A stretch of 64,000 nt of DNA from a virus. The notes under the pieces were generated by a model. That model saw only the letters and a list, made by a program, of their open reading frames with translations, made no database searches and had not been told where the DNA came from. The DNA is taken from positions 1 to 64,000 of the IMG/VR virus record IMGVR_UViG_3300021963_000110; one strand, written 5' to 3'. Shown piece after piece: positions 32,795 through 61,697 of this stretch. How positions within the stretch are numbered: position 1 is the first letter of the stretch; each line of letters starts with the position of its first letter. The translations under genes and the position numbers were made by a program.

Positions 32795-35700
32795 TTATCT
32801 TGTAGGTAATACAGCGATTGCTGGTGTAAAGTTTGCAGTATATCTTGCGTTAGCTGTTATTCGCACATCATCCATGTAACCAAAATATCCGTTTCCTCCA
32901 GTACTATCAGAACCAAGTCTTAACGGACCGTTACCAATAACTGCGGATGTAACATATGTATTAGGCAAAACGTTTCCGTTATAATAACCTCTAATATTTG
33001 CATTTGCTCTAACAACCGCAATATGTGTCCAAGTATTTGGAAGAATAACGGGACCTGATAATGTTAAATTAGCATTAGTAGCACCAAATAGATTAAGAAC
33101 CAATGTGCCATTTACCGTGATTATATTTAATCTTCCTGCTGCCTCAGAACCAATTGTCATTGGATAATATGTGCCAGATGAAGTATATGGGTTGAGCCAC
33201 ATCTCTGCGGTAAAGTCGCTTGTGCCTAAAATTAATGCATTGGATACCAATGTAATATTACCATAATCACCTGTACCGTCAAAGAACATAGACGATCCGC
33301 CGAATTTACTGCTAACAGATGATACTTTTAGGTCAGCAGTTGTTTCCATATTATTTCGCATAGTATAATCTTTAATTGCAGCATCAGTAAAGTTTAACAT
33401 TACTGTTGTGTTGCCATATACTTGCAATGGTCGCTGCGAAGGAACAAACGGACCTTTATATAATGCTGCACCATTTGTAAATCTAATATCGGACATGTAT
33501 CCCATTAATTCATAATCAGAATTAATTCCCTGGTCTTTACTACCTATTCTAGGAGCGGTTGCACCTGGGCTAATTGCGCCTGTGCCATAACTTGCATTAT
33601 AGTAATCTCTTGCGCCGTTTACATACCCCGTTAACACACTACCGTTTCTTTCAAAAGCAATATGTGTCCATGTATTTAAGGGAATTGTAGTTGATCCGGT
33701 ATAATTTGTGCCTGTATAAAAATTTACTCTATATGTACCAGAAGTAACACCCAAATTAAATATCCATGCTGCAGCAGTGGCTCCATTTGCCCTTGCATCA
33801 ATGATTGTCCAAGTTCCGCCATTCTGTTTTGTCGGATACACCCATGCTTCAACCGTAAAGTCTCCAACTAGATCGTACAATGTACTTGATGGCAAAGTTA
33901 ACCAATCCGATATAGAATCAAAATATACAGAACCACCAAATGTGTTAGCTGTGTAATCTATTAATGTGGGCGAATTAAATCCGAACGGATTTGCCATAAT
34001 CGGTTTAGCATCTCCTGTTACAGTAACCGCAAAATTATTTGTACTGTTGTCAACTATTGTTACCGCATTACAAGCCAATACAGATGTATTTGCGATAGCG
34101 GTTAGTGGTGCAGTTGGGGGCGTAAATGTAGTGGTGTAGACGGCTGTGCCTTTAACAATACGCAGATTGGAGATATATCCAGTAGTATAACCTGTTAAAT
34201 CTCCTCTGGCACCAAAATACATCGTAGATGCAGAGCCTAAAGTTCCACTTAAAGTACGAGATGCGTTATTAACACCATTAATGTATAATGTTGACGTTGT
34301 TCCGTTACGCACCCAAGCTATGTGTGTCCATGTATTGGTTGGCGCAGATCCCGTACCTATAGGAAAATCGGTACCAGACATATATACGCTTATATTTCCA
34401 CTTTGTCGTTGAAATAAATATGAATTATTGGTATCCCCGCTAATAGCACTGTATCCATCGGTTGTTGGGTAGAACCAAAATTCAAATGTAAAGTCTCCTG
34501 GAAATGAGTTGGCTCCAGCCGACACAGTTAAATAATCGCCATTGCCATCAAAAGATACACTATATGATGTAGGAGTAGGTTGTGTGTATGCAGGTGAGAA
34601 TGGAGTCTCTGTACTAACAGTCACAGAGCCTGCTCGACTTAAAGTATAGTTATTAGGGCTTAAATCAATTAAACGATTTGTGCAAGAAGTTAATAACTGA
34701 GTATTTGTAATAGGCAGCAAAGGAGAGGTTGGGGGACTAAATGTTGAAGTATATAATGCGGTACCTTTTAGTACTCGTAAATTTGAAATAAAACCAAAAG
34801 TATTATATACCGTGCCTAACCCGCCAAAATAATTCGCATATATTGTAGATGAATCAGTTATTGCGGAAGAGAATGCTTTCTCCACACCATCAACATATAC
34901 CTTTACGACATTACTTGAACGAACCAACGCAACGTGTTGCCATTTATTAAATGTTAGTGCAGGTGCGCTTGTTGTAAGTTGCCCATACCCCGGAGTATAG
35001 TAACCTATCTGACCAGTTGAATTATAATAGAATTGGAAGTATCCGCCATTTGTATTAGTTGCAACTAACATAGAATACCCGCTACCAGATGCACCGGTTG
35101 GATATAACCACATTTCTATAGTATAATTTGCATCTAAAGTAACACCACCTGTGCCAGATGATTGAGCAGATATGTACAATGAATTTCCGTTTGCTACACC
35201 AAAATAATTTGACCACGATCCCTTATAAGGTGTAACAGTTCCTTGATTCGCGTTACCATTTCTAGTAATTAAATGTCTATAATTACTTTTATCTAAGAAT
35301 GTTGTATTGTTATGCGGTTGATTGTTTTGCATAGTCAACATCAAAACATTAGTAGTTGCAAATGTAGTATTCACATTAGCAGTACTTCTATAAGGCAACG
35401 ATGAAGCAATTGGTAATACTGGAGCAACAGGTGGAGTAAAGTTACCAGTATAAACGGCTGCAGAAGACATTCTGACATCTGACAGATAACCACCAAATGA
35501 TGTAGCTGATGCACTTAATACGCCAGATCCATTATAATAATTTCCAAAACTATAATTAACAGATAACGCCGCACGGGTAGCTGAAGATGTGCCTGTTGCG
35601 GTTGAAACACCATTTACATATAAAGTAAATGCGGAACCCGATCTAACTACAGCAACATGATGCCAACTATTTGCAATAGATGTCGCTGAACTAGTTAAAA

Positions 35701-36835
35701 AATCTGATGCCTCAGATTGCGCGCCAAACGACATTGCAAACTGTCCACTGGAATTTAAACTAAGAAGGAACCCGCCATTGCCAGTAGTTTGTAACCATTG
35801 ACCAAATATTGGCTGAAAAGCATTTACAACTAAAGGATACACCCACATCTCTATAGTAAAATCACTTGTAAGAATACTGGGTGCATTTTGATATGGGATA
35901 GTTACAAAATCACCTGTACCATCCATGTATGTTGAACCGTAAGTAGAATAACTTACATTAGGTGTGAAAGGATTTGCTGATACGATTTTAGTATCACCAT
36001 TTTTAGTAATAGTAAAATTATTTGTAGAATTGTCTATAAATCTATTTGACTGGCAGGTTAATAAACTTGTTCCAGAGATAGCAGTTAAGGGTGCTGTACT
36101 TGGGGTAAAGTTACTTGTATATAACGCAGTACCTTTAACAAATCGAAAATTACTAATATAACCAGTAAAGAAATATCCCGCAGTTTGATTTGCCGCAATT
36201 CTTTTTGTTGTTACTGTAGTAGTTAAATTCTGTGTTTGTGATGTTTTTGTTTGGTCTAACACACCATTTACAAAAGTATAAGTAGTGGTTCCAGTTCTGA
36301 CAAAAGCGACATGATTCCAAGTGTTCACTGCCATTGCAATAGTGCCTGTCGATACTGTTGGTGAACTAGCTACTTCCGCTAAATAGCAATCCAATTTGTT
36401 AGTATTTTGGCGTAACTCCATTATGCTACCTGCACTGTGTACCTTAAATATAGGCGCTTCTGATGCCGCAACTTGGGTTGGGTATATCCATGCTTCAATA
36501 GTAAAATCACCCGTACCAACTACAAAAGCGGCATTATCTGGAATTTGTAAATAATCTCCTGTGCCGTCAAAGTATGCACTATAATATCCGGGTTCGTATG
36601 GGTTAAAATTAGAGGCTTTAGTGTCGCCTACAATATTTAAATTTAATTTATTTGTACTAATGTCTGAGTTAAACGGATAGCTTATACTTGTTCCGGTTGC
36701 AACAAATTTTGTCAAGTAATATAACGAGTCAATCGGTGTAATGATTGGATCGCCATACCCATATACAGGCCAAACTTCTGCCAAGCGAAGTTGATATACA
36801 TCGTTTACTACAAATATGCCGTCAAAATAACTCAT
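32795..36835 (-). CDS. Giant fibre with six LamG domains
   Basis: 1346 residues. The anchor MSYFDGIFVVNDVYQLRLAE is of the same type as 25043 and 36851. Six LamG modules begin with YFDGTGDYLQIPD, YMDGTGDFVTIPY, a degenerate NYFGVANGNSLYI, SFDGNGDYLTV, YFDSISDWLTL and FFDGTGDYGNI. Module order and linkers parallel 28711. The two genes are four bases apart and probably arose by duplication. Likely a glycan-binding long fibre. Confidence 0.75.
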   Translation of the reverse strand: MSYFDGIFVVNDVYQLRLAEVWPVYGYGDPIITPIDSLYYLTKFVATGTSISYPFNSDISTNKLNLNIVGDTKASNFNPYEPGYYSAYFDGTGDYLQIPDNAAFVVGTGDFTIEAWIYPTQVAASEAPIFKVHSAGSIMELRQNTNKLDCYLAEVASSPTVSTGTIAMAVNTWNHVAFVRTGTTTYTFVNGVLDQTKTSQTQNLTTTVTTKRIAANQTAGYFFTGYISNFRFVKGTALYTSNFTPSTAPLTAISGTSLLTCQSNRFIDNSTNNFTITKNGDTKIVSANPFTPNVSYSTYGSTYMDGTGDFVTIPYQNAPSILTSDFTIEMWVYPLVVNAFQPIFGQWLQTTGNGGFLLSLNSSGQFAMSFGAQSEASDFLTSSATSIANSWHHVAVVRSGSAFTLYVNGVSTATGTSSATRAALSVNYSFGNYYNGSGVLSASATSFGGYLSDVRMSSAAVYTGNFTPPVAPVLPIASSLPYRSTANVNTTFATTNVLMLTMQNNQPHNNTTFLDKSNYRHLITRNGNANQGTVTPYKGSWSNYFGVANGNSLYISAQSSGTGGVTLDANYTIEMWLYPTGASGSGYSMLVATNTNGGYFQFYYNSTGQIGYYTPGYGQLTTSAPALTFNKWQHVALVRSSNVVKVYVDGVEKAFSSAITDSSTIYANYFGGLGTVYNTFGFISNLRVLKGTALYTSTFSPPTSPLLPITNTQLLTSCTNRLIDLSPNNYTLSRAGSVTVSTETPFSPAYTQPTPTSYSVSFDGNGDYLTVSAGANSFPGDFTFEFWFYPTTDGYSAISGDTNNSYLFQRQSGNISVYMSGTDFPIGTGSAPTNTWTHIAWVRNGTTSTLYINGVNNASRTLSGTLGSASTMYFGARGDLTGYTTGYISNLRIVKGTAVYTTTFTPPTAPLTAIANTSVLACNAVTIVDNSTNNFAVTVTGDAKPIMANPFGFNSPTLIDYTANTFGGSVYFDSISDWLTLPSSTLYDLVGDFTVEAWVYPTKQNGGTWTIIDARANGATAAAWIFNLGVTSGTYRVNFYTGTNYTGSTTIPLNTWTHIAFERNGSVLTGYVNGARDYYNASYGTGAISPGATAPRIGSKDQGINSDYELMGYMSDIRFTNGAALYKGPFVPSQRPLQVYGNTTVMLNFTDAAIKDYTMRNNMETTADLKVSSVSSKFGGSSMFFDGTGDYGNITLVSNALILGTSDFTAEMWLNPYTSSGTYYPMTIGSEAAGRLNIITVNGTLVLNLFGATNANLTLSGPVILPNTWTHIAVVRANANIRGYYNGNVLPNTYVTSAVIGNGPLRLGSDSTGGNGYFGYMDDVRITANARYTANFTPAIAVLPTR

Positions 36836-42496: not shown

Positions 42497-45400
42497 TCAT
42501 CTTAAAGGAAATGTGCTAGTTGCAGGGGTAAAATTGCCGGTATAACGGGCATTTCCTTTTGTAAAGCGTAGATCATCTAAGTATCCTACAAGATACGCCG
42601 GAGTTGTCAACACACCAACTGCAGCGCCAGATTGAGTAAATCCTATACCACTTTGCGTAGAAGCATTTGTTGTAACTACTACACCATTTACAAATAGTCT
42701 AACTGTTCCAGAAGCTCTTGTAGCTGCTACGTGATACCACGTTCCGGCTGTAGGCGACCAAGTGTAGGAAACCGCATATGTGCCAGATCCATGCTGAGAA
42801 GATTTTAATGCCCCTGATTCATAACCAAACCAAAATGGGCCGTTTGCGCTTGAGATATTATTTGTAGTTTGCCAAAACGCACATGTCTGCACCGTACTAA
42901 AATTTACCCAACATTCTATTGTATAGTCTTCAGTTGCACCAATTGCATATAGAGGATTTGAAGGGAAACTTAAATAATCACCTGTACCATCAAAGTACAT
43001 GGCAGATCCGCCAAACTTACTATTAGCAGTTGTTATCTTTGAATCGCCCAATGTTTCCATAACTCCAGACATAGATAAATCTTTTATTGCTGCATCTGTA
43101 AAGTTTAACAATGCCATAGTATTTGCGACTGAGAATGTTGTATTTACATTCGCTGTACTTGTATACGATGCGGCCGAACCATTTACTAATAACGGTGCGA
43201 TTGGAGGTGTGAAGTTTCCTGCATATACTGCGGTACCCTTAACAAGTCTAACATCGGAGATATATCCATTAAGATATATTGGATTTGATGCATACCCATA
43301 TCTACCAATCAATACCGGAACTCCGCTGATAAAAAATTGTCTTGATTCTGAAGCGCTTCCTCCTGCTAGAGTCAATCTAACACCATTCACATACGCATAT
43401 AATGTATTAGATGCTCGTACAAATGCAATATGATACCATTGATTAGTTTTGAACGCATACGACCATGACGGGTAATTTGGCGATGAGGTTGCGCTAATAG
43501 CAAATGCAAGCTCTGTCGGAGTCATATAAAAATAATCAGATGATGCCCCATTGTCGGATCCAAATATCATACCAGTTACAGATAAAGGATACACCCATGC
43601 TTCAATTGTAAAATCTCCTGTTAAACAATTATGCGAATCTGAATTTGCTATTGATACATAATCGCCTGAGCCATCTAAATATATAGACCCCCCATATGTC
43701 TCCGGTGTATAATAATTATTAGTTGCGCTCGGGGCAAAAGGAGAGAATCGTTGTACACTAACATCGCCATTCTTTGTAATAGTAAAATTATTTGTAGAGG
43801 TATCAATAAATCTATTTGACTGACAAGTTAATAACGATGTGCCGGATACTGCTGTTAGTGGCTCGGTTGGAGGTGTAAATGCTGCAGTATAAAGTGCTGT
43901 GCCTTTAACAATCCGGAAGTTTGAAATGTACCCAGTTAAGAAAAAATCAGCACTTCTTGTTCCAATTGTATAAGTTCCAGAAGTGTAATTTATTGTCGAC
44001 GGTATGGTGCCAGCAGAACCTTGCAAAACACCGTTAATAAAAAATCTCCTTGTTGTTCCACTTCCTTCGTATGAAATAGCAACGTGAGTCCAAATATTTG
44101 CTGATAAAATTCCAATATTATGCCAAGCAGTGCCGTCCCACCATTGAAGTTGATTATTAGTTGTATTAGCTCCTATTCCTATTCCATAACCGGAATAAGG
44201 GTTTAACTCATTATATCCTCTAAAAATAAATGCGGATGACCCGACAGCAGGTATTACAAATGGGTTAACCCAAAATTCAATTGTAAATGCTGTAGTATTA
44301 TTTAACTGTATCGCTGGTGCAGAAGCAATAGATAAATAATCCCCAGTACCATCAAAGTAATTACTCCAATTCGCGCCATACGGAGTAAACGTGCCTTGCG
44401 TCGCATTACCATAACGTGTAACCAAACTCTTAAAATTACTTCTATCCAAGAATGTAGAGTTATTGTGCGGTTGATTATTTTGCAGGGTTAGTAAACTTGT
44501 ACCAGACACAGCAGTCAACGGTGTTGTACTTGGTGTAAAATTACTTGTATATAACGCAGTATCGTTAACTATTCTAAAATTACTAATATATCCAATAAAA
44601 TAATGTTCATATCCAGAAAACTTTGCTGCCGCGCCGATATTTAAAGTACTAGATGCCGCTGAACCGCCGGTATAAGCATCAATAGTCAATGTTTGTGATG
44701 CCCCATTTACAAACAAATAGTTACTTGATCCATTACGAACTACGGCAACATGATACCAAGTATTTAATGAAAATGTATATGAGCATCTCATGTAGTTACT
44801 GTTACTACCCATAACACTAAAATAAAGAATATTACTGGTTTGGTCTATAAAAAATTCCCAACCTTGACCGACTGTAGCAGGGCCGAATACAGCAATTGCC
44901 CCTTGCTTGTTACCACCCGAATCAGTAGCAAATGACCCTGTTATGTTTATCCATGCTTCAATAGTGAATGTACCTCCTGCAACATTAAACGCAGAATTAT
45001 AAGGCACAGATAAATAATCCCCAGTACCATCAAAGTATCCACTACCGTATGTACTATAACTACTTACAGGTGAAAATGGATTTGCTACTGTTACTTTAGT
45101 ATCTGCGTTTACAGTAATTGTAAAGTTATTTGTAGAGTTATCTATAAATCTATTTGACTGGCAGATTAATAATTGTGTACCCGATACTGCTGTTAGAGGA
45201 GACGTAGGAATTGTAATAGAAGATGAGGTTGGATCATATATTGAAGATCCCTTGGATATTCTTAGGTTTGAAATATATCCTATTAAGTATCCGCTATTAG
45301 TAGCTTGACGACCTATATTAAAAGAGTTCGTACTTGAAAAATTATTAGTTACTGTCGCAGTCGCCACTCTAACACCATTTAAGAACATAGATGCGGTTGT

Positions 45401-46009
45401 CCCGTTCCTACAAACAGCTATGTGATTCCATCTACCTGCAGTTGATGCTACACTTGATGTAAGAAATGCTGTGCTCCATCCATATACTGTTGGGTAATAT
45501 GTAGATGCTGATATTTGTATTTCAAATTGAGCGTCTCCATATAAAGGGGCCGATCCATTTTGAACACTATTACTAATTAACGCTGCAAATGCAATTGTTG
45601 GTTGATAATACCACATCTCAACACAGAAATCACCTGTATCAAAAGCAAGATTAGATGAAGATGGAATTGATAAATAATCCCCGGTGCCGTCAAAATATGC
45701 GCTATAATATCCAGGTGTGTACGGATTAAAGTTTGTCGCTTTTGCATCAGCTAAAACTGATATATTAAACTTATTTGTACTAGCATCGGCATTAAATGGA
45801 GTTGCGGTTGTATCTGCATTTATTAATAACGAGTTGTAACTAAAGAATGGATCAGTTACATAAACAGGAATTTTTATAGTAGTATCTGGCCATGCAGCAG
45901 CTTTAACTGCTTGTATATGGATATTTTTATTATAGATGCCGGAAGCAATTGTAGCGTTTGCAACAATTTTTCTAGATGTGATTAATCCGCCATAGTATCT
46001 TTTTACCAT
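42497..46009 (-). CDS. Giant fibre with five LamG domains
   Basis: 1170 residues. The anchor MVKRYYGGLITSRKIVANAT is shared with the glycine-rich protein encoded just upstream (46022). Five LamG modules begin YFDGTGDYLSIPSS, YFDGTGDYLSVPYN, YFDGTGDYLSIASA, YLDGSGDYVSIANS and YFDGTGDYLSFPSN, each ending in the SNxR(I/V)xKG and FTP signature. Linkers repeat LTAVSGTxLL-x-CQSNRF. It carries copy B of the 100-bp repeat. Likely a glycan-binding fibre. Confidence 0.75.
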   Translation of the reverse strand: MVKRYYGGLITSRKIVANATIASGIYNKNIHIQAVKAAAWPDTTIKIPVYVTDPFFSYNSLLINADTTATPFNADASTNKFNISVLADAKATNFNPYTPGYYSAYFDGTGDYLSIPSSSNLAFDTGDFCVEMWYYQPTIAFAALISNSVQNGSAPLYGDAQFEIQISASTYYPTVYGWSTAFLTSSVASTAGRWNHIAVCRNGTTASMFLNGVRVATATVTNNFSSTNSFNIGRQATNSGYLIGYISNLRISKGSSIYDPTSSSITIPTSPLTAVSGTQLLICQSNRFIDNSTNNFTITVNADTKVTVANPFSPVSSYSTYGSGYFDGTGDYLSVPYNSAFNVAGGTFTIEAWINITGSFATDSGGNKQGAIAVFGPATVGQGWEFFIDQTSNILYFSVMGSNSNYMRCSYTFSLNTWYHVAVVRNGSSNYLFVNGASQTLTIDAYTGGSAASSTLNIGAAAKFSGYEHYFIGYISNFRIVNDTALYTSNFTPSTTPLTAVSGTSLLTLQNNQPHNNSTFLDRSNFKSLVTRYGNATQGTFTPYGANWSNYFDGTGDYLSIASAPAIQLNNTTAFTIEFWVNPFVIPAVGSSAFIFRGYNELNPYSGYGIGIGANTTNNQLQWWDGTAWHNIGILSANIWTHVAISYEGSGTTRRFFINGVLQGSAGTIPSTINYTSGTYTIGTRSADFFLTGYISNFRIVKGTALYTAAFTPPTEPLTAVSGTSLLTCQSNRFIDTSTNNFTITKNGDVSVQRFSPFAPSATNNYYTPETYGGSIYLDGSGDYVSIANSDSHNCLTGDFTIEAWVYPLSVTGMIFGSDNGASSDYFYMTPTELAFAISATSSPNYPSWSYAFKTNQWYHIAFVRASNTLYAYVNGVRLTLAGGSASESRQFFISGVPVLIGRYGYASNPIYLNGYISDVRLVKGTAVYAGNFTPPIAPLLVNGSAASYTSTANVNTTFSVANTMALLNFTDAAIKDLSMSGVMETLGDSKITTANSKFGGSAMYFDGTGDYLSFPSNPLYAIGATEDYTIECWVNFSTVQTCAFWQTTNNISSANGPFWFGYESGALKSSQHGSGTYAVSYTWSPTAGTWYHVAATRASGTVRLFVNGVVVTTNASTQSGIGFTQSGAAVGVLTTPAYLVGYLDDLRFTKGNARYTGNFTPATSTFPLR
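43807..43906. repeat. 100-bp perfect repeat in a LamG gene (copy B)
   Basis: Identical to 29298-29397, 14.5 kb away in a different fibre gene. Divergence starts abruptly on both sides. Confidence 0.85.
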
Positions 46010-47736: not shown

Positions 47737-50184
47737 TTATATGCCAGCATATGCTCTTGTTGGCACAGTAAAATTCGTAGTGTATCGTGCGTAACCTTTT
47801 GTAACACGAACATCGTCAAGATATCCTTGATAAAATTGACTATATCCTGATATGCCACCCACCCATAGTGCAGCAGTTGCGGTTATATTAAATCCAGTTG
47901 TAGAACCAGTTAATGCCTGCGATTGTCCATTAAAATATATTTTAGAAGTGCCTGAGTTTAAAACACAAGCAACGTGTGTCCAAGTATTTAATGGTAATGT
48001 GTTGGATGTATATCCCGCATTACAAAATCCTATTACTCCGCTTGAATAATATACGTCAACAAATGCAGAACCAACTGCACCGTTGTTTACAATTCTAGCA
48101 ACTGCCGGTGCGCTTGTAGGATATGCCCAAAATTCTACAGTACAATTTGCGCCTAGAGCCCAATCCGGACTTGCCTGTGCTGCAATATAGTCTCCTGTAC
48201 CGTCAAAGTACATTGCAGTTCCGCCAAAAACAGATTGAGTAGATGATACTTTAGAATCACCTGCTGTCTCAAAATCACTAATCATTGTACCATCATATAT
48301 ACCTGCATTTGTAAAATTACATAATAGCCCTGTATTAGCTGCGGCAAATGTAGTGTTTACGTTAGCCGTACTTGTATATGGTGCAGATGAACCGCTTGTT
48401 AATACCGGTGCAGATGGCGGAGTAAAGTTGCCTGTATATACTGCGGAACCTTTAACAATACGCAAGTTAGAGATATATCCTGTTACATAAGCAGATCCAT
48501 TGCCATAAGAACACAACTTTAGTGTTGAACTTGCAGGATCGCTAACAGTAACTCCTGTTAAATTGGCAGTAGTTCCTCCTGCGACTCCATTTACATATGT
48601 TGTAAGTGTATTGCCATTTCTTACGCATGCCACATGATTCCATGAATATGTTCTGAATGCAGTAGAAGAGGAAATATATTGAGTAGCACCTTGAAGTACG
48701 CTAAACTGCATAGTAGTTGCGTCTACTTGATATAGTTCCCACGCAAAATTTGTGTTAGTAGATTGTCCGTTTGAATAATTTAAAACGGTACCGGAAGATC
48801 CTGTTATATAAACCCAAAGATCTATTGTAAAATCTCCTGCCCCAAAAGCAAACCCCGCATTGTTAGGTATTGTTAACCAATCTCCTGCACCATCAAAGTA
48901 TGCAGAACCCCCGAATGTCGTAGTAGAATACGGAGATGATAATGTCAGTGGACTAAACTTCTTAACAGTTACATCGCCATTTCGTGTAAATGTAAAGTTG
49001 CTGGGGCCGTTGTCTTTAAAACTACCTGATTGACAACATAGAATTTTTGTATTTGTAACCGCAGTTAATGGTGTTGTACTTGGTGTAAATGTTGTGGTAT
49101 ATAAGCAACTGCCGGAACCATTTACAACTCTAACATTACTAATATAACCCGTAAATACATTATATAGACCCCCATCTGCAAGTTGGCCTGCAATCATTGT
49201 TGTTGGTGCCTGACTTGTCTGTAGATTCAAACTTGTGGAATAACTTACTGTTGTAGCATCCAGCACACCATTAATGAAAGAACGTATAACATTACTTGCG
49301 TCACGAGTAATTGCAACGTGTGACCATTTATGTGTGGGGACGCCACTTGTTGAGGCATAAATTTCTGGATATGTATTATATACCCCTGCTGATGCAGCAA
49401 GACCTAATACCCCTGTAGATTTTATATAGAACTGATATCCAGAATTTTGGCCAATGTTCCAATTTGAATTAGTTATAATTTGATTAGCAGTATTTAATAC
49501 CGTGGGATATACCCATGCTTCAATTGTAAACTCACCGGTTGCAATATCTGCTCTACCACTTGATACTAGATAATCCCCTGACCCGTCAAAGTACCAAGAC
49601 CAATTATTTGCGTAAGGGCTAAATGCACCCTGTGTTGCGTTGCCGTTACGAGTTATTGTAAGATTGTTTGTAGATGAATCTAAAAACGTATTGTTTTGTG
49701 CGTTGTTTGTCCCATCACCGTTTAACAATAACACGGTATATGGGAACTGTGCATCAGATGGGAATGAGGTATCGTTAATTGTAACATTTGCAGTTTGACC
49801 TGCAGCAGTCATTTGTATAATCTCAGTTCCTTCTAAAGTAACGTCTGCCGATGCATTAAACGAAACTGTGCCAGAGCCATTGGATATAACAAAATTACCT
49901 GTTAGAATGTTATTTGCAGAGTCAGCAGTTGTTACATTTGTACCGGATAAGGTGTAAGGTATAACTGTGCCGTTAGGAATGCCCGTTGTTGTTAATGTGA
50001 AGTTAACAGATGCACCCTCATTTACAGTACCGGCTGAAGATGAAAGAGTAAACGTAGGTGGGACTTGCCATGTACCTTTTTTCTGTAAGGTATATGCCTC
50101 TTTACCTGTCCATATGCCGGATGCACTTGTGTTAGATGCAGTGGCATAATTTCCTATTACTGATCCTCTTTGTCTTAGTCCCAT
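47737..50184 (-). CDS. Fibre with one Calx-beta and three LamG domains
   Basis: 815 residues. The anchor MGLRQRGSVIGNYATASNTS with SASGIWTGKEAYTLQKKGTW is followed by a Calx-beta-like domain (about 45-130; GTVNEGASVNFTLTTTGIPN ending VTINDTS). Three LamG modules follow, from about 185, 430 and 650 (YFDGSGDYLVSS, YFDGAGDWLTIPN, YFDGTGDYIAAQ). It is a tandem paralogue of 50191. It is likely a glycan-binding fibre. Confidence 0.75.
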   Translation of the reverse strand: MGLRQRGSVIGNYATASNTSASGIWTGKEAYTLQKKGTWQVPPTFTLSSSAGTVNEGASVNFTLTTTGIPNGTVIPYTLSGTNVTTADSANNILTGNFVISNGSGTVSFNASADVTLEGTEIIQMTAAGQTANVTINDTSFPSDAQFPYTVLLLNGDGTNNAQNNTFLDSSTNNLTITRNGNATQGAFSPYANNWSWYFDGSGDYLVSSGRADIATGEFTIEAWVYPTVLNTANQIITNSNWNIGQNSGYQFYIKSTGVLGLAASAGVYNTYPEIYASTSGVPTHKWSHVAITRDASNVIRSFINGVLDATTVSYSTSLNLQTSQAPTTMIAGQLADGGLYNVFTGYISNVRVVNGSGSCLYTTTFTPSTTPLTAVTNTKILCCQSGSFKDNGPSNFTFTRNGDVTVKKFSPLTLSSPYSTTTFGGSAYFDGAGDWLTIPNNAGFAFGAGDFTIDLWVYITGSSGTVLNYSNGQSTNTNFAWELYQVDATTMQFSVLQGATQYISSSTAFRTYSWNHVACVRNGNTLTTYVNGVAGGTTANLTGVTVSDPASSTLKLCSYGNGSAYVTGYISNLRIVKGSAVYTGNFTPPSAPVLTSGSSAPYTSTANVNTTFAAANTGLLCNFTNAGIYDGTMISDFETAGDSKVSSTQSVFGGTAMYFDGTGDYIAAQASPDWALGANCTVEFWAYPTSAPAVARIVNNGAVGSAFVDVYYSSGVIGFCNAGYTSNTLPLNTWTHVACVLNSGTSKIYFNGQSQALTGSTTGFNITATAALWVGGISGYSQFYQGYLDDVRVTKGYARYTTNFTVPTRAYAGI

Positions 50185-50190
50185 TTTATT

Positions 50191-52590
50191 TTAATAACCT
50201 GGTAATGTTATTGTTGGCGGCGTAAAGTTTGAAGTGTATCTTGCGTAGCCGTTTGTGATACGAAGGTCATCCATATAACCATACCAAGGATAATCAGTAG
50301 TTGTATTAAATCTACCGATAAACAAAGAGCTACCGGAACTTAAAAAAGACGCAGATTGCGATCCATTGGTCATTGACAACGCAGTTCCATTTATATAAAA
50401 CACAACATTGTTGCTACTACGAACTACTGCAATATGATACCATATATTTTGCGAAAAGGTATAAGTCGCGGAAGCGCGAGTAGCCGTAGAACCACCAAAC
50501 TGTGCTTCTAACCCAGAAGAATTAAGAGATATGTATCCTTGACTTCCACCGTCGGAAATAATCATTCTGTAATTTGTTTGTGCTGCAGTTAAATAAAACC
50601 AACCCTCAATTGTAAAATCTGCACTTGCACCAATTGACCAATTCTTGGGACTATATAACCAATCACCTGTACCATCAAAGTACATAGCAGATCCGCCGAA
50701 TTTAGATTGCGCTGTAGATATTTTTGAATCTGCAACTGTTTCCATGTTATTCATCATTGCATTATCAATGATACCTGCATTTGTAAAATTACATAATAAC
50801 GATGTCCCTGATATAGCAGTTACTGGCGCAGTCGGAGGAGTAAATGCAGAAGTATATACTGCAGAACCATTAACCAATCTCAAATTAGAAATCCAACCGG
50901 TAATATAATTGCCTAACCCACTACCAGATTTATATACGCCTATGGCCGGATAATAAGTTGCATTAGATGCACTGAAAGTAGCAGTTCCAGATATTGTTAG
51001 TGATTGCGACACACCATTTACATAAATTGAAAATGTAGATCCGTTATATGTGACAGCAAAATGATTCCATGCATTTACATTCCATGCAGCGCCAGTATAA
51101 AATCTATAAAAATTTCCAGATGAACCTCTATAAATTTGTACATCTATATTTCGTGATGCACCGTTTGATAAAGAAATATTAATACCAACAGAAACCGAGT
51201 CAGCATCAGTACTAAAAATTACTTGGGCAGATGTTGAACTAGTATAAAACCAAGATTCAATTGTCCAAGGAGCAGTGCAAGTATGAAGAAAATTAGCAGA
51301 GTTTGGGGGCAATTCTAAGTAATCGCCGGTGCCATCAAAGTATGCGGAGCCCCCGTATATACTTGGACTATACGCAGATGTTGGTGAGAATGGCGAGAAT
51401 CTTTGAACCGATACATCACCTGCAGGGGTAATTACAGCTGCGGTGGAACTATTGTCTTTAAAGCTATTGGATTGACAAGTAAGCAAACCTGTGCCAGCAA
51501 TAGCAGTTAAGGGTGTAGTTTCGGGGGTAAAAGCAGAGGTATATACTGCTGAATTTTGAACTAATCGTAAATTAGAAATATAGCCCGTAAATGGTGAATT
51601 TCCTCCATCCACAGTACCAATATAAAGAGTGCTTGAATCGTCACCCATAGTAAATGAAGCAGTTGTTGTAACTTGAGATACACCATTGACCCAAATAGTA
51701 AATACATTGGATGCATTTCGTGTAACAGCAACATGATGCCATTGGTTAGGTTCAAACGTATTAGTAGTTGTTAAGGTCACTTCCCATGCTGCATTATTTG
51801 TATCACCTGCGTAGAAAGAAAATTTCTTGGATGTGATATTGCCATATGAAAGCCAAAAGCCCCTGGCAGTCACTACTGCACGTCTGCCAATAATTACACC
51901 GTTGTCTGTCCTAGGATATACCCAAGCTTCTATAGTAAACGGATTAGCTGCTAGATACGTTGTTGCGGCTGACGGTAATGATAAGTAATCTCCAGTACCA
52001 TCAAAATAGTTAGACCAATTACTACCATACGGAGTAAATGAACCTTGCGTTGTATTACCATTACGGGTTATTGTAAAATTATTTGTAGATGAATCTAAGA
52101 ATGTATTGTTTTGAGTATTATTTGTACCATCGCCGTTTAATAATAAAGTTGTATAGTTAAATTGCGAATCTCCTCCACGGGAAGTATCATTAATTGTAAC
52201 ATTTGCAGATGCACCGCCTGCAGTTATAGTTAATGTTTCTGCACCTTCAAGTGTCAAGTCTGCATTTGCTGCAAATGATATAGTATTTGAATTATTCTGT
52301 ATTACGAAATTGCCTGATATATTACCATCGCTCGAAGTTACATTTGCACCAGTTATAACGTAAGGAACAACTGCACCATTTGGAATACCGGTAGTTGTCA
52401 AAGTAACAGTAATGGATGCACCCTCATTAACTGTAGCTGCGCTAGGAGTTAATGTAAATGTAGGTGCAATTTGCCAAATACCATCTTGTTGTAATGCCGC
52501 AACTTCTTGCGATGTCCACATTCCCGTGGCGGAAGTACTTGAAGAAGTAATCGGTTCACCAATAACGGAACCGGTTATTCTTAGAGCCAT
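50191..52590 (-). CDS. Fibre with one Calx-beta and three LamG domains
   Basis: 799 residues with the same order as 47737: anchor MALRITGSVIGEPITSSSTS and SATGMWTSQEVAALQQDGIW, Calx-beta-like domain (AATVNEGASITVTLTTTGIP), then LamG modules starting YFDGTGDYLSLPS, YFDGTGDYLELPP and YFDGTGDWLYSPK. Tandem duplication with drift is evident. The start is coupled to the upstream small virion protein by TAATG. Confidence 0.75.
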   Translation of the reverse strand: MALRITGSVIGEPITSSSTSATGMWTSQEVAALQQDGIWQIAPTFTLTPSAATVNEGASITVTLTTTGIPNGAVVPYVITGANVTSSDGNISGNFVIQNNSNTISFAANADLTLEGAETLTITAGGASANVTINDTSRGGDSQFNYTTLLLNGDGTNNTQNNTFLDSSTNNFTITRNGNTTQGSFTPYGSNWSNYFDGTGDYLSLPSAATTYLAANPFTIEAWVYPRTDNGVIIGRRAVVTARGFWLSYGNITSKKFSFYAGDTNNAAWEVTLTTTNTFEPNQWHHVAVTRNASNVFTIWVNGVSQVTTTASFTMGDDSSTLYIGTVDGGNSPFTGYISNLRLVQNSAVYTSAFTPETTPLTAIAGTGLLTCQSNSFKDNSSTAAVITPAGDVSVQRFSPFSPTSAYSPSIYGGSAYFDGTGDYLELPPNSANFLHTCTAPWTIESWFYTSSTSAQVIFSTDADSVSVGINISLSNGASRNIDVQIYRGSSGNFYRFYTGAAWNVNAWNHFAVTYNGSTFSIYVNGVSQSLTISGTATFSASNATYYPAIGVYKSGSGLGNYITGWISNLRLVNGSAVYTSAFTPPTAPVTAISGTSLLCNFTNAGIIDNAMMNNMETVADSKISTAQSKFGGSAMYFDGTGDWLYSPKNWSIGASADFTIEGWFYLTAAQTNYRMIISDGGSQGYISLNSSGLEAQFGGSTATRASATYTFSQNIWYHIAVVRSSNNVVFYINGTALSMTNGSQSASFLSSGSSLFIGRFNTTTDYPWYGYMDDLRITNGYARYTSNFTPPTITLPGY

Positions 52591-52961: not shown

Positions 52962-55900
52962 TTAATAAAATATTCTTGAAAACGCGTAAGCTGATGATCT
53001 AATAATTTGTCTGACCAATGTGTCATTTGACAACACCGTTGGCAATACTGCGGTTACCATTGCCTGTGTTAGATTTGCATTAAATGCCTCTGCGCCAAAG
53101 AACTTAACTTCAACCAATGAACCTACAGCTGGAACCGATGTACCAAATGATAATGTGTTACCCGATACTGTGTAGTTTAAATCTGGAATCTGTGTAACAC
53201 CGTCGATGTTAACAATAATGTTTCTTGCTAAAAGAACATTTGAACCAAGATCTAAATTAGCACTGCCGCCAGCATATGTTCTGCTATTGCTTATGTATGC
53301 AGTTGTATATTGTGCGCCTGCAAGAGCAACTGCCTCTTGACCAAAGAATCTAATTTCAATATTAGAACCTTCAGGTGGCGCTGGTATCATTGTTATCGTT
53401 GTATTGTTGACTGTGTAGTCAACTGTTGGTCTTTGAATTAGACCATCCAACGCAACCATAATACTTTGTGCTTGCGTTACATTTGCACCCATCATATATG
53501 CAGCTTGACCTGCAACTGTTGGGATTGTTACGCTACTTGATACAACTGCAACATTAGGAGATAATGCAGAGTAACCATAATACTTAACTTCAATTAACGC
53601 ATTTGCTGTAGTATTTGCACTGAACTGTAAACCTTGGCCACCATTCAATGTGTAATCTGTTGTTGGCGCTTGAACCAAACCGTTAATAGAAACAATTATT
53701 GAATTAGCATTATTAACTGGGCTTGCTAATGTATAATTCTGATTGCCGCCGGTTAACTGCTGAGAGCTGCTAACGGTTAATTGAGTGGCACCTGCTTCAC
53801 CTGAAGAAATTCTACCATTGGCTTCAATTGTAATATTGTTACCTGCAATCAATGCAGAAACAACTCTTGTATTTGTGAAATACAGATTGCCGGCGGTCTC
53901 AATTACATTAGCAGTATATAAATTATTCCATACATTAGATGTAATAGTGTTAGCAGTTATTGTATCAGATGTACTAATACCGGAAGTTACATTTCCTGCT
54001 AATACTGTATCTGTTACGTTAATGCCGCGAATAATTAAACCATTCGCAATCAAATTACCTGCTACTGTAGCAGTCCCGGTTATTACTAAGTTAGCAAATG
54101 TCACCGATGCGTTAGGTGATACATTTTGTCCAATTGAAATAACACCAGTAGTATTACTATAAAGTATACCTGTACCAGATGACAACGCTGCAAATACTCT
54201 TGCATTCGTGTAATACAGATTACCGGGTGTTTCAATTACATTAGCAGAATATAGGCCAACCCAAGAATTTGCTGAAATTGTATCACTAGAAATTGCAAGA
54301 TTTCCTGCAGAACTTCTGACTTCCAATCCGCCATTTGCATTTTCAGATAATGAAATATTACCTAGACGAAGCGTTGATCCGGATAACCATAAGTCTTTAA
54401 ATCTGCGATTAGGTGAACCTAAATCGTAAACACTATCTTCTAAAGGAACAATATTAGTACTTAAGTTTGCAAATATTTGTGTTACATTGGCATAAACACG
54501 AGCATTTGTAAAGAATAAATTGTCGGTTTCAATTATATTTGATGTGTATAATCCTGTCCAGGTGGATGCAATAATAATATTAGTACTAATTAAATTAGCA
54601 CCAGTAATAAATCCACCAGATGTTGTGCCTACAATAGCATTTGCATAAACAGTATCAGCTTGAATGTTACCTGTATATGTTGGCAACAATGAGATTACAT
54701 TAGAGTAAACTCTAGAATTTGTGTAATATAAGTTTGTTAACTCTGCAACATTAGCTGTTGTCAAATCAACAACATTTGCCTTTGTTTCCAACAACGGTGT
54801 TACATAGCTTAAAACACGAGCATTAGTATAATATAAGTTACTTGCTGCTTCTGCAACATTAGCTGTGTTTAAACCAATAACTGTATTTGCATAAACAATT
54901 CCACCCAATGATGCGGAAATAACACCATTACCATCAATTGAAATACCGGAACCTGCTAATGTTGGCAATAATGCAATAACATTAGATTGTACTCTGGAAT
55001 TTGTATAATACAAAATATCAGAAGTTTCAATAACATTAGTTGTGTATAATCCAGTCCATATTGAAGAAACAATAATGTTGGTGCTAATTAAATTAGCGCC
55101 TGTAATGAATCCACCAGATGTTGTACCTACAATAGCATTTGCGTAAACAGTATCTGCTTTTACGTTGCCAGTATATTCTGGTAATAACTGAATAATGTTA
55201 GAATAAACTCTAGCATTTGTATAAAATAAGTTTGTCAACTCTGCAACATTAGCAGTTGTTAAGTCTACTACATTTGCTTTTGCGTTTAATAATGGAGTTA
55301 CATTACTTAAAACGCGAGCATTCGTGTAATATAAGTTGCTTTCGGATTCTGAAACATTTGAAGTATTCAATCCAACAATAGTATTAGCAGTAACTATGCC
55401 ACCTAATGATGCAGAAATAACACCGTTTGCGTCAATTACGATACCTGTTCCAGCTAATGTTGGTAACAAGGCAATAACATTAGATTGTACTCTAGAATTT
55501 GTATAGTACAAATTGTCAGGTGTTTCAATAACATTAGCAGTATAAAGACCTGTCCAGGTGGATGCAATAATAATATTAGTGCTAATTAAATTTGCACCAG
55601 TAATAAATCCACCAGATGCCGTACCTATTAATGTGTTTGCGTATAATATATCTGCTTGTATATTACCTGTATATGTAGGTAAGAATGAAGTTATATTTGA
55701 TGCAACTCTTGCATTTGTATAATATAGATTATTTCCTTCTGGCAAATTAGTTGTAGAAAGATTACTAATCGATAACACTGCATTTGCAATGTTCGCAGTT
55801 TGTGCAAAAATTGCGGAATTTGCCGCGTCTGCAACTTGTGCAAATGTTGCAGTTCCTATAGTAACACCTAAATTTTCAACGAAAGTTTTTGTTACTCTAT

Positions 55901-58900
55901 TATCAATTGCTAAATTAGCTCTTACATTACTATAATATAAGTTTGCACCTTCTGCAATATCACTTGTAGTAATTGTACTTACAGATTTCTGTATAACAAT
56001 ACTTCCAACCATTCCACTATGAATAGAACATTGGTACACATAGGTGTTACCTGCTAAACTATATGGTATTTTCCAAAATAATCTACCAGATACTTTTCCT
56101 TGAGCGGATGAACCTGTTGAGATAGTTCCATCATTAGCAACATGAGTTAACCCAGTATCATAATTAGAACCGCCCGCTGAAACACGGATCATGAATGGGT
56201 GGCCTGGGCTATTAAGACCAAATGCTATAGTTTCACCGGCTCTTACATCTAGAGCAGGATTATTTCCAGTATATTGATCTATACTATAGTACAACCCAGG
56301 AGAAGTAACCAATAGTTCTGTTACCGCAGGAATAACATTTAATATTGCTCTTGCATTAGTATAATATAAATTACTTGCCGACTCAATTACGTTAGCAGTA
56401 TTTAATCCTGTAACAGAACCTGCAGAAGTTGTTGCTGAAATTTGACCATTTGCCGCAATATTAATTCCTGAGCCGGCTAATGTTGGTAGCAACGTAACTA
56501 CATTAGATCTAACTCTATCATTAGAATAATATAAGTTATTGCCTTCATCTAAATTGCTTGTAGTAAAGTTACTGATACTAGAAACAAATCCCGTTACATT
56601 ACCAACAACATTACCTTCAAATGTTGTAGCTACAACATTCGCTAAACGGAATGAACTATCTGCAGTGTTAATAGTGCCTGCGCCGGGCTCAACGGTGTAA
56701 TCATCAAAGAACTTATATTTCTTATCGGATGCATCTCTGAATAGACCAGAATGTTTTTCAGTTCCATCATTGTAATGTCCTATAAAACCTAGGTCTAATG
56801 CATCAGATGGGTTATTATAACCTAATTGAATTAACGGATCGTTTACAATTAATGTATTTGAATAAAATCCAACTAAGTTGCCAAGAACATTTAAGTTGCC
56901 AGTAATGGTCATTTCATTGAATGTCACATTAGCATGAGTAGCAACATTCTGGCCAATTGAAATAATACCGGTAATATCATCATATGTAACACCGGTACCT
57001 GCGGATATTGCAGTTCTTGCACGAGCATTTGTATAATACAGATTACTGTCAGATTCGATAACATTAGCTGTATTTAAACCTGTAACAGATCCTGCGGAAG
57101 TTGTTGCAGAAATTTGACCATTTGCTGCAATACTAATTCCAGATCCAGCTAATGTTGGCAATAGTTCAATAGTATTGGCTTGTACTCGAGCATTGGTATA
57201 ATATAAATTATTTACAGATTCAATTACGTTAGCAGTTGTTAAATCAACAATATTTGCTTTGTCATTTAATAAACCAATTACATTGGCATAAACTCTAGCA
57301 TTTGTGTAATATAAATTATTTACAGATTCAAGTACGTTAGCAGTTGTTAAATCGATTACATTGGCTTTTTCGTTTAATAAACCAATTACATTAGAGTAAA
57401 CTCTTGCATTTGTAAAATACAAATTGCTTGCAGATTCAATTACGTTAGCTGTATAAAGACCTACCCAAACATTAGCGGTAATCCTGTTAACACTAATATC
57501 GTTATTGGAGAATAATTCATATCCATTGATAACCAACGTATTAGTTACTAACGTATTTGTACTAATTAAATCTGCGCCAGTGATACGTCCTGTGCCGCCA
57601 GAAGTAATTATATTACCTACTTGTAAATTGCCGGTATATGTTGGCAATAATGCTAATACATTTGCATAAACTCTAGCATTAGTATAATATAAATTAGATG
57701 CCGACTCTGCAACATTTGCAGTATTCAATCCAATAATGGAAGTTGCAAAAACACTAGGAGCGGCCGTTGTTATTGTTGCAGAAATTTGACCGTTTGCTGC
57801 AATAACAATATTATTACCCGCCAATGTTGGCAATAATTCTAATACATTTGCATAAACTCTATTATTAGTATAATATAAATTACTGCCTTCAGAAATATTT
57901 GAAGTAGTTAAATTAGCAACTACGTTTGCTGTAACAATACCTGTTAGCGTAGAACTAATAACACCCGAGCCAGAAATCGATATACCTGTACCAGGAGTAA
58001 ATGCGTTAATCGCTCTAGTATTGGTAAAGAATACATTACCTGCAGATTCAATTACATTTGCTGTGTATAAATTAGTCCAAACATTTGCAGTAATTCTATT
58101 AACAACGATGTCATTGTTAGAAAATAATTCGTAACCATTAATAACCAACGTATTAGTTACTAACGTATTTGTACTAATAAATTCTGCACCGGTGATTCTA
58201 CCAGAACCACCTGAAGTAATTATGTTACCAACTTGCAAATTACCAGTATATGTTGGCAACAACGCCAATACATTAGCGTAAACTCTTGCATTAGTATAAT
58301 ATAGATTGCTTGCAGATTCTGTAACATTAGCTGTATTTAAACCTGCAATAGAACCAACAGCGGTCGTAGATGAAATCTGACCATTTGCTGCAATTGCAAT
58401 ACCTGTTCCTGCTAATGTTGGCAACAACGCCAATACATTAGAGTAAACTCTTGCATTTGTAAAATACAAATTGCTTGCAGATTCAATTACATTTGCGGTG
58501 TATAAATTAGTCCAAACATTAGCAGTAATTCTATTAACACTAATATCGTTATTGGAGAATAATTCATATCCGTTTATAACCAACGTATTAGTTACTAATA
58601 CATTTGTAGTTATATTGCCAGTAACTGTTAAATTACTTAAAGTTCCAACTGAGGTTGCGCTTGCGGTTGAAGAAATTTGACCGTTTGCTGCAATACTAAT
58701 ACCTGAACCAGCTAATGTTGGTAACAGGGCAATTACGTTAGATCTAACTCTATTATTAGTATAATATAGATTGCTTGCAGATTCAATTACATTTGCGGTG
58801 TATAAATTAGTCCAAATGTTGGCAGTAACTCTCGTAACAGTAATATCATTGTTAGAGAAGAATTCTGAACCATTAATAATTAATGTATTTGCTACAACTG

Positions 58901-61697
58901 AATTCACTCGAACATTAGTCGCGTTAATATTTGTTACAGATTCGGTACCATTAACAATTTCTTGGCCGTTTATAATCAATCCGTTTGATGTTAAGAAACC
59001 ATTTACTCGCAAATTACCATTAATAGTTGTCTTATTATTAACTATTAATGTATCAGCCGGGGCCAATATAATATTTGAATCGGATGCAATTGTTGGGATA
59101 CCTGCGCTAGCAACTGAAATTGCGTTAGCATATATGACATCTCTTACAGACAAATTGCCTTGTATAGAAATGTTCCCAGTCAATGTAGTAATATTTGCAA
59201 CGGCTGCTGAAACATCTGCGGATATTCTACCGTTTGCTGCAATAGAAATTCCTGTGCCAGCTAATGTTGGCAATAATGCAATAACATTAGATCTTACTCT
59301 ATCATTAGAATAGAATAAATTGCCTGTAGATTCAACTATGTTTCCTGTATAAAGGTTTGTCCAAACATTTGCAGTAATTCTATTAACAACGATGTCATTG
59401 TTAGAGAACAATTCATAACCATTTATAATTATTGTGTTGGTTACTAATGTGTTTGTACTAATAAATTCTGCACCGGTGATTCTACCAGAACCGCCTGAAG
59501 TAATTATATTCCCTACTTGTAAATTGCCCGTATATGTTGGCAATAATGCCAATACATTAGCGTAAACTCTTGCATTAGTATAATATAGATTTGTGCCTTC
59601 TGATAAATTAGAAGTAGTTAAATTACTTAGGCTTAATACTAAGTTAGCAATATTTGATCTTTCAGCAAACGCCGAAGATGTACCACCGGTAACTGCAGAA
59701 ATTTGGCCGTTTGCTGCAATAGAAATTCCTGTACCTGCTAATGTTGGCAATAATGCAATAACATTGGAGTAAACTCTTGCATTTGTAAAATACAAATTAC
59801 TTGCAGATTCTACGACATTCGCAGTTGTTAAATCTGTTACGTTGGCTTTTGTGTTTAAAAGACTTATAACATTGGCATAAACACGAGCATTAGTATAATA
59901 TAGATTTGTGCCTTCAGCTAAATTACTTGTTGTAAAGTTACTGATAGATAGTACAGTATTAGCAACATTTGCAGAACTTGCAAATATAGCTGTTACACCC
60001 AATGCATCAATAAAGGGTTTATTGACACGAGTATCAATTGCTAAATTTGCTCTAGTATTACTGTAATATAGATTTATACCTTCAACTAAATTAGTTGTTG
60101 TAAAATTATCGATTCTGCTTACAAAACCAGTTAGATTACCTACAAATCCGGCAAACACAGTAGTTGCTTGAATATTTGCCAAACGGAATGTTGGATGAGA
60201 TGTATCTAAATATACATTTGCATCTGGTTCTGGAGCATAATTATCAAATACTTTAAATCTTCCATCTGTATGGTCTCTGAAGAAACCAGCATGATGATAT
60301 GTTCCATCGTTATAATTAAATGTAATACCTAAATCTGGATTAGATGTTGTTGATCCCTGATTTAAATAAATCATATTGTCCGAAATGGACAAATTGTTTG
60401 AGCTATATGTGGTTACATTTCCATATACATTTAACGGTCCGTATATAGAAACTCCGGCAAATGATACTGAAGCATTTGGTGCAACATTTTGACCAATTGC
60501 AATTACACCGGTTGTTTGATTATAACTAACGCCTGTACCTTCAGATAATGCAGATTTAACTCTTGCATTTGTGTAATATAAATTACCATCAGTTTCTATT
60601 ACGTTTGCAGTATAAATACCATTCCATATATTAGCAGTAACCGTATTTGCACGAAGACCTGTAATAGATAAAGAATTATCTGGGCTTGAGGACAATACAG
60701 TATTGCCCAAGTTAATTGTAAAGCCTGAAAGATAAAGGTCTTTAAACTTTCGAGTGGGTGAACCTAAGTTATAAACTTCATCCGCTGCTGGGATAATATT
60801 ACTATCTAAATTTAGTAATCTGTTTGTTACGTTTGCATATACACGATTATCGGTATAATATAAATTACCAGATGTTTCAATAACATTAGCAGTGTATAAA
60901 TTTAACCAATTTACTGCAGAAATATTGTTTGCACTAATTAAATTAGCACCAGTAATAGAACCGCCTGAACCTGTACCAACAATAACATTACCAGCAGCTA
61001 CATTGCCAGTATATGTGGGTAATGCGGCAACTATATTAGAATGAACTCTTGCATTCGTATAATATAGATTGCTTGCCGATTCTGCAACATTTGCAGTTGT
61101 AAGATCAACAATATTGGCTTTGGCGTTTAATAAACCAATTACATTAGAGTAAACTCTTGCATTAGTATAATATAGATTTACACCTTCTGCTAAATTAGAA
61201 GTAGTTAAATTGCCTAAACTTATTACTAGGTTAGCAATATTTGATCTTTCAGCAAAGACCGCAGTATTTGATGTTTCAGCAAATACCGCATTATTTGCAA
61301 TGAGAGAACCTTGCACAATAGTTAAAACAGTATTTGCTACATTTGCTAACTCAGTAGATGATACAGTAATTACATTTGGAACCCATTTTGTACCATTCCA
61401 AACTAATCCGTATCCCAATACAGGTGTAACTGTTGAAGTATCAACATCAAGCAATTCATTAATACTATTTAAATCAATATTAGCTTTTGTTGTGGATATT
61501 AAATTTGCAACTCTTTGTTCTGTTACCGGAACAATCCAAGTTCTAAGCCCGTTAACATTGGAAGCAAGAACATACCCGTTACCCGCAGGCAACCCTAAGT
61601 CTGGTTCTGTTTCAGATAACTTTATAAATTCATAACGACTAGCGCTTACATTAGCGCTAGGTATCTTTTTTACTCTACCCGATATTAGTTTAGTCAT
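52962..61697 (-). CDS. Giant repetitive tail fibre with embedded cupredoxin-like domain
   Basis: 2911 residues. About 32 copies of a short motif (NLYYTNARVYSNV and variants) alternate with LPTLAGTGISIAANGQIS or GNIITSGGSGRITGAEFIST blocks, a rod-like beta repeat. Two copies of a 100-residue unit (FNYNDGTYHHAGFFRD and GHYNDGTEKHSGLFRD) are inserted. At about 1800-1905 lies a cupredoxin-like domain with His1833 (SPGHPFMI), Cys1890, His1893 and Met1896 (YQCSIHSGMVG). Near the C-terminus three Ig-like repeats share I-x-V-x-x-(N/D)-G-(L/V)-x-Q. It is likely a long tail fibre or whisker. Confidence 0.75.
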   Translation of the reverse strand: MTKLISGRVKKIPSANVSASRYEFIKLSETEPDLGLPAGNGYVLASNVNGLRTWIVPVTEQRVANLISTTKANIDLNSINELLDVDTSTVTPVLGYGLVWNGTKWVPNVITVSSTELANVANTVLTIVQGSLIANNAVFAETSNTAVFAERSNIANLVISLGNLTTSNLAEGVNLYYTNARVYSNVIGLLNAKANIVDLTTANVAESASNLYYTNARVHSNIVAALPTYTGNVAAGNVIVGTGSGGSITGANLISANNISAVNWLNLYTANVIETSGNLYYTDNRVYANVTNRLLNLDSNIIPAADEVYNLGSPTRKFKDLYLSGFTINLGNTVLSSSPDNSLSITGLRANTVTANIWNGIYTANVIETDGNLYYTNARVKSALSEGTGVSYNQTTGVIAIGQNVAPNASVSFAGVSIYGPLNVYGNVTTYSSNNLSISDNMIYLNQGSTTSNPDLGITFNYNDGTYHHAGFFRDHTDGRFKVFDNYAPEPDANVYLDTSHPTFRLANIQATTVFAGFVGNLTGFVSRIDNFTTTNLVEGINLYYSNTRANLAIDTRVNKPFIDALGVTAIFASSANVANTVLSISNFTTSNLAEGTNLYYTNARVYANVISLLNTKANVTDLTTANVVESASNLYFTNARVYSNVIALLPTLAGTGISIAANGQISAVTGGTSSAFAERSNIANLVLSLSNLTTSNLSEGTNLYYTNARVYANVLALLPTYTGNLQVGNIITSGGSGRITGAEFISTNTLVTNTIIINGYELFSNNDIVVNRITANVWTNLYTGNIVESTGNLFYSNDRVRSNVIALLPTLAGTGISIAANGRISADVSAAVANITTLTGNISIQGNLSVRDVIYANAISVASAGIPTIASDSNIILAPADTLIVNNKTTINGNLRVNGFLTSNGLIINGQEIVNGTESVTNINATNVRVNSVVANTLIINGSEFFSNNDITVTRVTANIWTNLYTANVIESASNLYYTNNRVRSNVIALLPTLAGSGISIAANGQISSTASATSVGTLSNLTVTGNITTNVLVTNTLVINGYELFSNNDISVNRITANVWTNLYTANVIESASNLYFTNARVYSNVLALLPTLAGTGIAIAANGQISSTTAVGSIAGLNTANVTESASNLYYTNARVYANVLALLPTYTGNLQVGNIITSGGSGRITGAEFISTNTLVTNTLVINGYELFSNNDIVVNRITANVWTNLYTANVIESAGNVFFTNTRAINAFTPGTGISISGSGVISSTLTGIVTANVVANLTTSNISEGSNLYYTNNRVYANVLELLPTLAGNNIVIAANGQISATITTAAPSVFATSIIGLNTANVAESASNLYYTNARVYANVLALLPTYTGNLQVGNIITSGGTGRITGADLISTNTLVTNTLVINGYELFSNNDISVNRITANVWVGLYTANVIESASNLYFTNARVYSNVIGLLNEKANVIDLTTANVLESVNNLYYTNARVYANVIGLLNDKANIVDLTTANVIESVNNLYYTNARVQANTIELLPTLAGSGISIAANGQISATTSAGSVTGLNTANVIESDSNLYYTNARARTAISAGTGVTYDDITGIISIGQNVATHANVTFNEMTITGNLNVLGNLVGFYSNTLIVNDPLIQLGYNNPSDALDLGFIGHYNDGTEKHSGLFRDASDKKYKFFDDYTVEPGAGTINTADSSFRLANVVATTFEGNVVGNVTGFVSSISNFTTSNLDEGNNLYYSNDRVRSNVVTLLPTLAGSGINIAANGQISATTSAGSVTGLNTANVIESASNLYYTNARAILNVIPAVTELLVTSPGLYYSIDQYTGNNPALDVRAGETIAFGLNSPGHPFMIRVSAGGSNYDTGLTHVANDGTISTGSSAQGKVSGRLFWKIPYSLAGNTYVYQCSIHSGMVGSIVIQKSVSTITTSDIAEGANLYYSNVRANLAIDNRVTKTFVENLGVTIGTATFAQVADAANSAIFAQTANIANAVLSISNLSTTNLPEGNNLYYTNARVASNITSFLPTYTGNIQADILYANTLIGTASGGFITGANLISTNIIIASTWTGLYTANVIETPDNLYYTNSRVQSNVIALLPTLAGTGIVIDANGVISASLGGIVTANTIVGLNTSNVSESESNLYYTNARVLSNVTPLLNAKANVVDLTTANVAELTNLFYTNARVYSNIIQLLPEYTGNVKADTVYANAIVGTTSGGFITGANLISTNIIVSSIWTGLYTTNVIETSDILYYTNSRVQSNVIALLPTLAGSGISIDGNGVISASLGGIVYANTVIGLNTANVAEAASNLYYTNARVLSYVTPLLETKANVVDLTTANVAELTNLYYTNSRVYSNVISLLPTYTGNIQADTVYANAIVGTTSGGFITGANLISTNIIIASTWTGLYTSNIIETDNLFFTNARVYANVTQIFANLSTNIVPLEDSVYDLGSPNRRFKDLWLSGSTLRLGNISLSENANGGLEVRSSAGNLAISSDTISANSWVGLYSANVIETPGNLYYTNARVFAALSSGTGILYSNTTGVISIGQNVSPNASVTFANLVITGTATVAGNLIANGLIIRGINVTDTVLAGNVTSGISTSDTITANTITSNVWNNLYTANVIETAGNLYFTNTRVVSALIAGNNITIEANGRISSGEAGATQLTVSSSQQLTGGNQNYTLASPVNNANSIIVSINGLVQAPTTDYTLNGGQGLQFSANTTANALIEVKYYGYSALSPNVAVVSSSVTIPTVAGQAAYMMGANVTQAQSIMVALDGLIQRPTVDYTVNNTTITMIPAPPEGSNIEIRFFGQEAVALAGAQYTTAYISNSRTYAGGSANLDLGSNVLLARNIIVNIDGVTQIPDLNYTVSGNTLSFGTSVPAVGSLVEVKFFGAEAFNANLTQAMVTAVLPTVLSNDTLVRQIIRSSAYAFSRIFY

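Follow-up and report, generated by a model that had tools for sequence, protein, structure and literature searches.

A cupredoxin domain with a putative type 1 copper site in tail proteins of T4-like cyanophages and their relatives

The 64,000 nucleotides analysed here (the window) are positions 1 to 64,000 of the IMG/VR virus record IMGVR_UViG_3300021963_000110, a 68-kb fragment, and encode a tail-fibre-type protein of 2911 residues. One segment of this fibre is probably a cupredoxin domain whose type 1 copper-type site is intact; it would be a portable module displayed on the surface of tail proteins in T4-like cyanophages and related phages. Judged from the sequence, the domain likely binds a metal, with copper as the foremost candidate. 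Blue copper proteins are familiar as electron carriers, soluble or membrane-bound, and as enzyme domains. If the tail and baseplate proteins of very abundant aquatic phages do have a type 1 site that is intact and strictly conserved, this would be a new setting for it, and these virus particles may carry copper. Apparently, a known domain family is found here in an undescribed setting.

Fold of the fibre segment and its candidate ligands

An AlphaFold2 model, calculated from the domain aligned to 21 relatives, has a predicted local distance difference test score (pLDDT) of 95.1 and a predicted template modelling score of 0.88 and shows the Greek-key beta-sandwich of the cupredoxin superfamily: the first His stands before a short strand, a further strand ends at the Cys and the second His and the Met lie in the loop that follows, as in cupredoxins. 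The preliminary description had expected these strands in a domain of about 105 residues at 55985-56310 and had suggested structure prediction as a check; the fold was recovered, while the domain is slightly longer than assumed (Table 1). Foldseek searches of the PDB with the model returned 35 matches at E ≤ 1e-3, nearly all of them cupredoxins, nitrite reductases or multicopper oxidases. AcoP, rusticyanin and nitrite reductase rank first, laccases and amicyanin lower, and the leading matches are all copper proteins. A PDB sequence profile search has copper nitrite reductase, plastocyanin, amicyanin and rusticyanin as its top matches, and the best of these (6hbe, a copper nitrite reductase) terminates in YVYICSIHPYMKG. 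Among viral structure predictions, the best named Foldseek matches are cyanophage tail and baseplate proteins.

The putative ligands His1833, Cys1890, His1893 and Met1896 are exactly the residues that had been named from the sequence. They follow the pattern of type 1 (blue) copper proteins, His...Cys-x(2-4)-His-x(2-4)-Met, and are placed as ligands should be in the predicted fold. The C-x2-H-x2-M spacing is indeed that of the amicyanin loop (the titles of PDB 2fta and 2vmj give the grafted loop as CTPHPFM), and the C..H..M motif of the fibre is unique among all open frames of more than 80 amino acids in the six frames of the whole window. Cys1890 is the sole cysteine among the 2911 residues of the fibre.

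Table 1. Positions of the fibre gene, the cupredoxin domain and the codons of interest in the window
Feature	Position	Strand	Basis
Cupredoxin-fold domain, residues ~1790-1906, inserted between repeat units	55980..56330	-	AlphaFold2, Foldseek PDB, PDB profile search
His1833 codon, predicted type 1 ligand 1, HPF motif	56199..56201	-	Open reading frame (ORF) mapping and representative alignment
His1852 codon, extra invariant His of the fibre-type subfamily	56142..56144	-	Position from ORF mapping
Cys1890 codon, predicted thiolate ligand	56028..56030	-	ORF mapping and representative alignment
His1893 codon, predicted type 1 ligand 2	56019..56021	-	ORF mapping and representative alignment
Met1896 codon, predicted axial ligand	56010..56012	-	ORF mapping and representative alignment
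Tail-fibre-type structural protein, 2911 amino acids, carries the cupredoxin domain; NLYYTNAR-type repeats flank the domain on both sides	52962..61697	-	ORF and PHROG matches

The segment shares with amicyanin and plastocyanin (PF00127, Copper-bind) the cupredoxin fold, the upstream His, the Cys-x2-His-x2-Met at the last strand and the loop length of amicyanin. These two are soluble electron carriers, however, whereas the phage copy is a domain of a tail protein, has an HPF at its first ligand and stays under the Pfam cut-off (17.0 bits, E 0.008, versus 21.2). PF00127 matches 16 of 22 homologues at E ≤ 0.1, and the homologue in the spike of P-SSM2 already exceeds the cut-off (23.3 versus 21.2). 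The type 1 domains of copper nitrite reductases and multicopper oxidases provide the best profile match, and the HPF of the fibre resembles the HPFHLH of multicopper oxidases; unlike these enzymes, the phage module is a single domain, and type 2 or type 3 copper ligands were not found in it.

The closest counterpart is the C-terminal domain of cyanophage gp9 (PHROG 677), a homologous cupredoxin domain with the identical four ligands. Positions 319-410 of PHROG 677 match the fibre domain with an E value of 2e-20, and both HPF and CxxHxxM of the cyanophage tail and baseplate module are present in the fibre. A gp9 model matches rusticyanin and amicyanin independently of the fibre model; the full-length protein is predicted poorly beyond the C-terminal domain (pLDDT 64). 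In contrast to the fibre, gp9 is the socket protein of the baseplate and not a long fibre, and it lacks His1852. This additional His, which is outside the classic ligand set, is kept in 45 of 45 fibre-type representatives.

Conservation and distribution of the ligand set

Conservation of the ligands was judged from ligand-blind scans only, and earlier scans with the Cys-His loop in the search pattern were left out as biased. Each scan retains the best 80 loci and the most distant relatives are therefore under-sampled. Queries of 52-53 residues from between the first His and the Cys, containing none of the four ligands, retrieved 139 loci; 137 of these reach the site and the other two end at a contig edge. 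His, Cys, His and Met are all kept in 137/137 readable loci, several of which have C-x2-H-x3-M, and thus the axial Met is retained even in loops that are one residue longer. Aligned over 45 representatives with a median identity of 57%, the ligands show 0 bits of entropy and the x positions between them 1.5-2.5 bits. Other columns are invariant too, for example P1834, F1835 and W1875, as is expected of a fold.

The second ligand-blind query, the N-terminal 295 residues of P-RSM4 gp9, retrieved 80 viral contigs; with three annotated gp9 genes added, 79/79 complete gp9 proteins have HPF or HPL and CxxHxxM at the C-terminus. The ligand set of the gp9 type is also present in Syn9, S-RIM8, S-RIM14, P-SSM4, S-SSM4, ACG-2014b/c/d, S-SZBM1 and the Pelagibacter phage Mosig. 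The module is absent from both gp9 and gp10 in a T4-like phage of Aeromonas, and from the counterpart in the Methylophilales phage Melnitz. The complete ligand set that the preliminary description had proposed is present in the fibre, and the loss in homologues that it had itself named as an objection was looked for and not seen in the 137 readable loci and the 79 gp9 proteins. A chance motif is ruled out by the same counts.

Both synonymous codons are in use for the Cys (TGT/TGC) and His (CAT/CAC) ligands, indicating that conservation acts at the protein level; on the available sequences, the ligands are conserved under purifying selection. Each domain has a lone Cys in all 137 readable loci and in all 79 gp9 domains, and with no second Cys in any domain and none elsewhere in the fibre, a disulfide role of the domain Cys is ruled out.

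Some observations weigh against an intact type 1 site in this fold. His1833 is followed by Pro, whereas the residue after the first His ligand of small blue copper proteins is usually Asn or Ser. The template modelling scores to solved cupredoxins in the Foldseek PDB search are modest (0.45-0.63). Finally, one relative (L032:5944-6300) lacks both ligand His and has Leu and Tyr instead (LPF, CxxYxxM), while Cys and Met remain; it is the sole ligand loss observed, with both His gone together, and indicates that the fold can persist without the full site.

The gp9 version is present in 329 phage records, nearly all of them cyanophages, and closes a protein whose N-terminus matches PF07880 (T4_gp9_10_N). 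Among 136 classifiable loci, the module is internal in fibres in 66 and at the protein C-terminus in 70; it is also found at the tip of a collagen-repeat fibre, and the P-SSM2 spike has two cupredoxin domains, each with the full ligand set. By its sequence relationships, the module is portable among the tail proteins of a large cyanophage-centred family and not the peculiarity of one fibre. Two scans with queries from the close family, covering 84,980 genomes of bacteria and archaea, confirmed no cellular relative. The plastocyanin of cyanophage papers is the product of the soluble petE gene and is distinct from the tail-protein domain; a recent fusion of a phage petE plastocyanin is unlikely, as the likeness to plastocyanin is detectable by profile alone and the loop spacing differs.

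Genes for subtilase-family proteins (PF00082) are located in the tail gene clusters of the cyanophages ACG-2014e (L045:2189-4249) and P-SSM2 (L044:1905-3740). In ACG-2014e, a cupredoxin domain with CxxHxxM forms the end of the subtilase itself, and the P-SSM2 gene is immediately upstream of the gene for the double-cupredoxin spike.

Possible roles of a bound metal

Because all four ligands, including the axial Met, are strictly conserved and the residues between them vary, a bound metal, most likely copper, would be in use. The fibre is presumably a trimer, and three copies of the domain would then project from its repeat shaft, each binding one copper ion. Since free copper is almost lacking in the cytosol, the ion would presumably be acquired outside the cell, after lysis. 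At one end of the beta-sandwich, the bound metal would pin the loops in place, resulting in a rigid surface module that may serve attachment or fibre docking. A structural or attachment role of such a metal-held module is a serious possibility that falls just short of probable. A metal-stabilised surface or docking module best fits the spread of positions, at the end of gp9, in fibre shafts and at tips. In T4, the long fibre attaches to the C-terminal domain of gp9 (PMC3004832), and the cyanophage gp9 module may thus sit near a moving joint.

That the domain is a relic scaffold, with the fold kept and the site out of use, had been offered in the preliminary description as one option and is very improbable: the relative without both histidines would fit it, but the four ligands are invariant in 216 ligand-blind homologues in which the neighbouring residues vary. 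Another metal, such as zinc or nickel, might be held structurally in a cupredoxin-like site, and indeed the identity of the ligands alone is compatible with other thiophilic metals and the HPF deviation could alter the site. Yet Cys-His-His-Met in a cupredoxin fold is the signature of type 1 copper and the PDB neighbours are copper proteins, making another metal quite improbable. A redox use, in which cycling between Cu(I) and Cu(II) would protect or trigger the virion, for example by scavenging oxidants such as superoxide in sunlit water or by accepting electrons from a partner on the host surface, is unlikely, if less so. The axial Met is dispensable for mere copper binding in other cupredoxins and important for the potential, and its invariance would therefore suit such a use, as would a family centred on phages that infect cyanobacteria of sunlit waters; however, no redox partner or enzyme was identified and the site, on external tail proteins, is remote from the chains of lumen and periplasm in which cupredoxins normally work.

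Metal on tail fibres has a precedent in T4 gp37, and iron in tail fibres has been proposed to act as a Trojan horse (PMC11705849), also called the Ferrojan horse hypothesis. HxH motifs of the trimeric fibre hold the iron of gp37, whereas the predicted copper site is mononuclear and lies inside one cupredoxin fold. In a copper counterpart, a metal-uptake receptor of the host would recognise the copper-loaded domains as bait. The iron in T4 fibre tips and the C-terminal copies in 70 of the 136 classifiable loci speak for this, but the module is common in internal positions too and occurs on gp9, a protein that does not form a fibre tip, and no receptor is known; we regard it as improbable, to about the same degree as another metal. 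Neither a cupredoxin in a phage virion nor a copper version of the Trojan horse was found described in the open-licence literature. An intact type 1 site in these tail proteins would, if true, provide the iron-centred idea of metal-carrying phage tails with a copper counterpart. The furthest-reaching proposal is that the virions of most T4-like cyanophages and of related freshwater phages like this one are copper metalloparticles with many type 1 sites per tail, that the redox state of these sites, or their loading with copper after lysis, controls the behaviour of fibre or baseplate and that the particles act as a copper-binding ligand in surface waters; this is doubtful, and only slightly less so than a redox use.

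The fibre gene and its surroundings

The 2911-residue protein has 27 NLYYTNAR-type repeats, and the cupredoxin domain sits between two of the repeat units. Its PHROG matches are 697 (structural protein, 1.7e-77), 2952 (minor tail protein, 3e-21) and 33244 (tail fiber, 4e-11); tail fibre, the location given in the preliminary description, is therefore a fair label. A neighbouring structural protein of 1002 amino acids shares about 45% identity along its entire length with virion structural proteins of cyanophages, for example of S-PM2, which identifies the phage, at the sequence level, as a relative of T4-like cyanophages.

Elsewhere in the window, genes of nucleotide metabolism (both the large and small subunits of ribonucleotide reductase and ThyX) are encoded on the minus strand at 10232-17000. 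Several very large repeat proteins, also on the minus strand (28711-36835, 42497-46009 and 47737-52590), have a common set of PHROG matches (24074, 3545 and 13163) and are apparently duplicated baseplate or structural modules.
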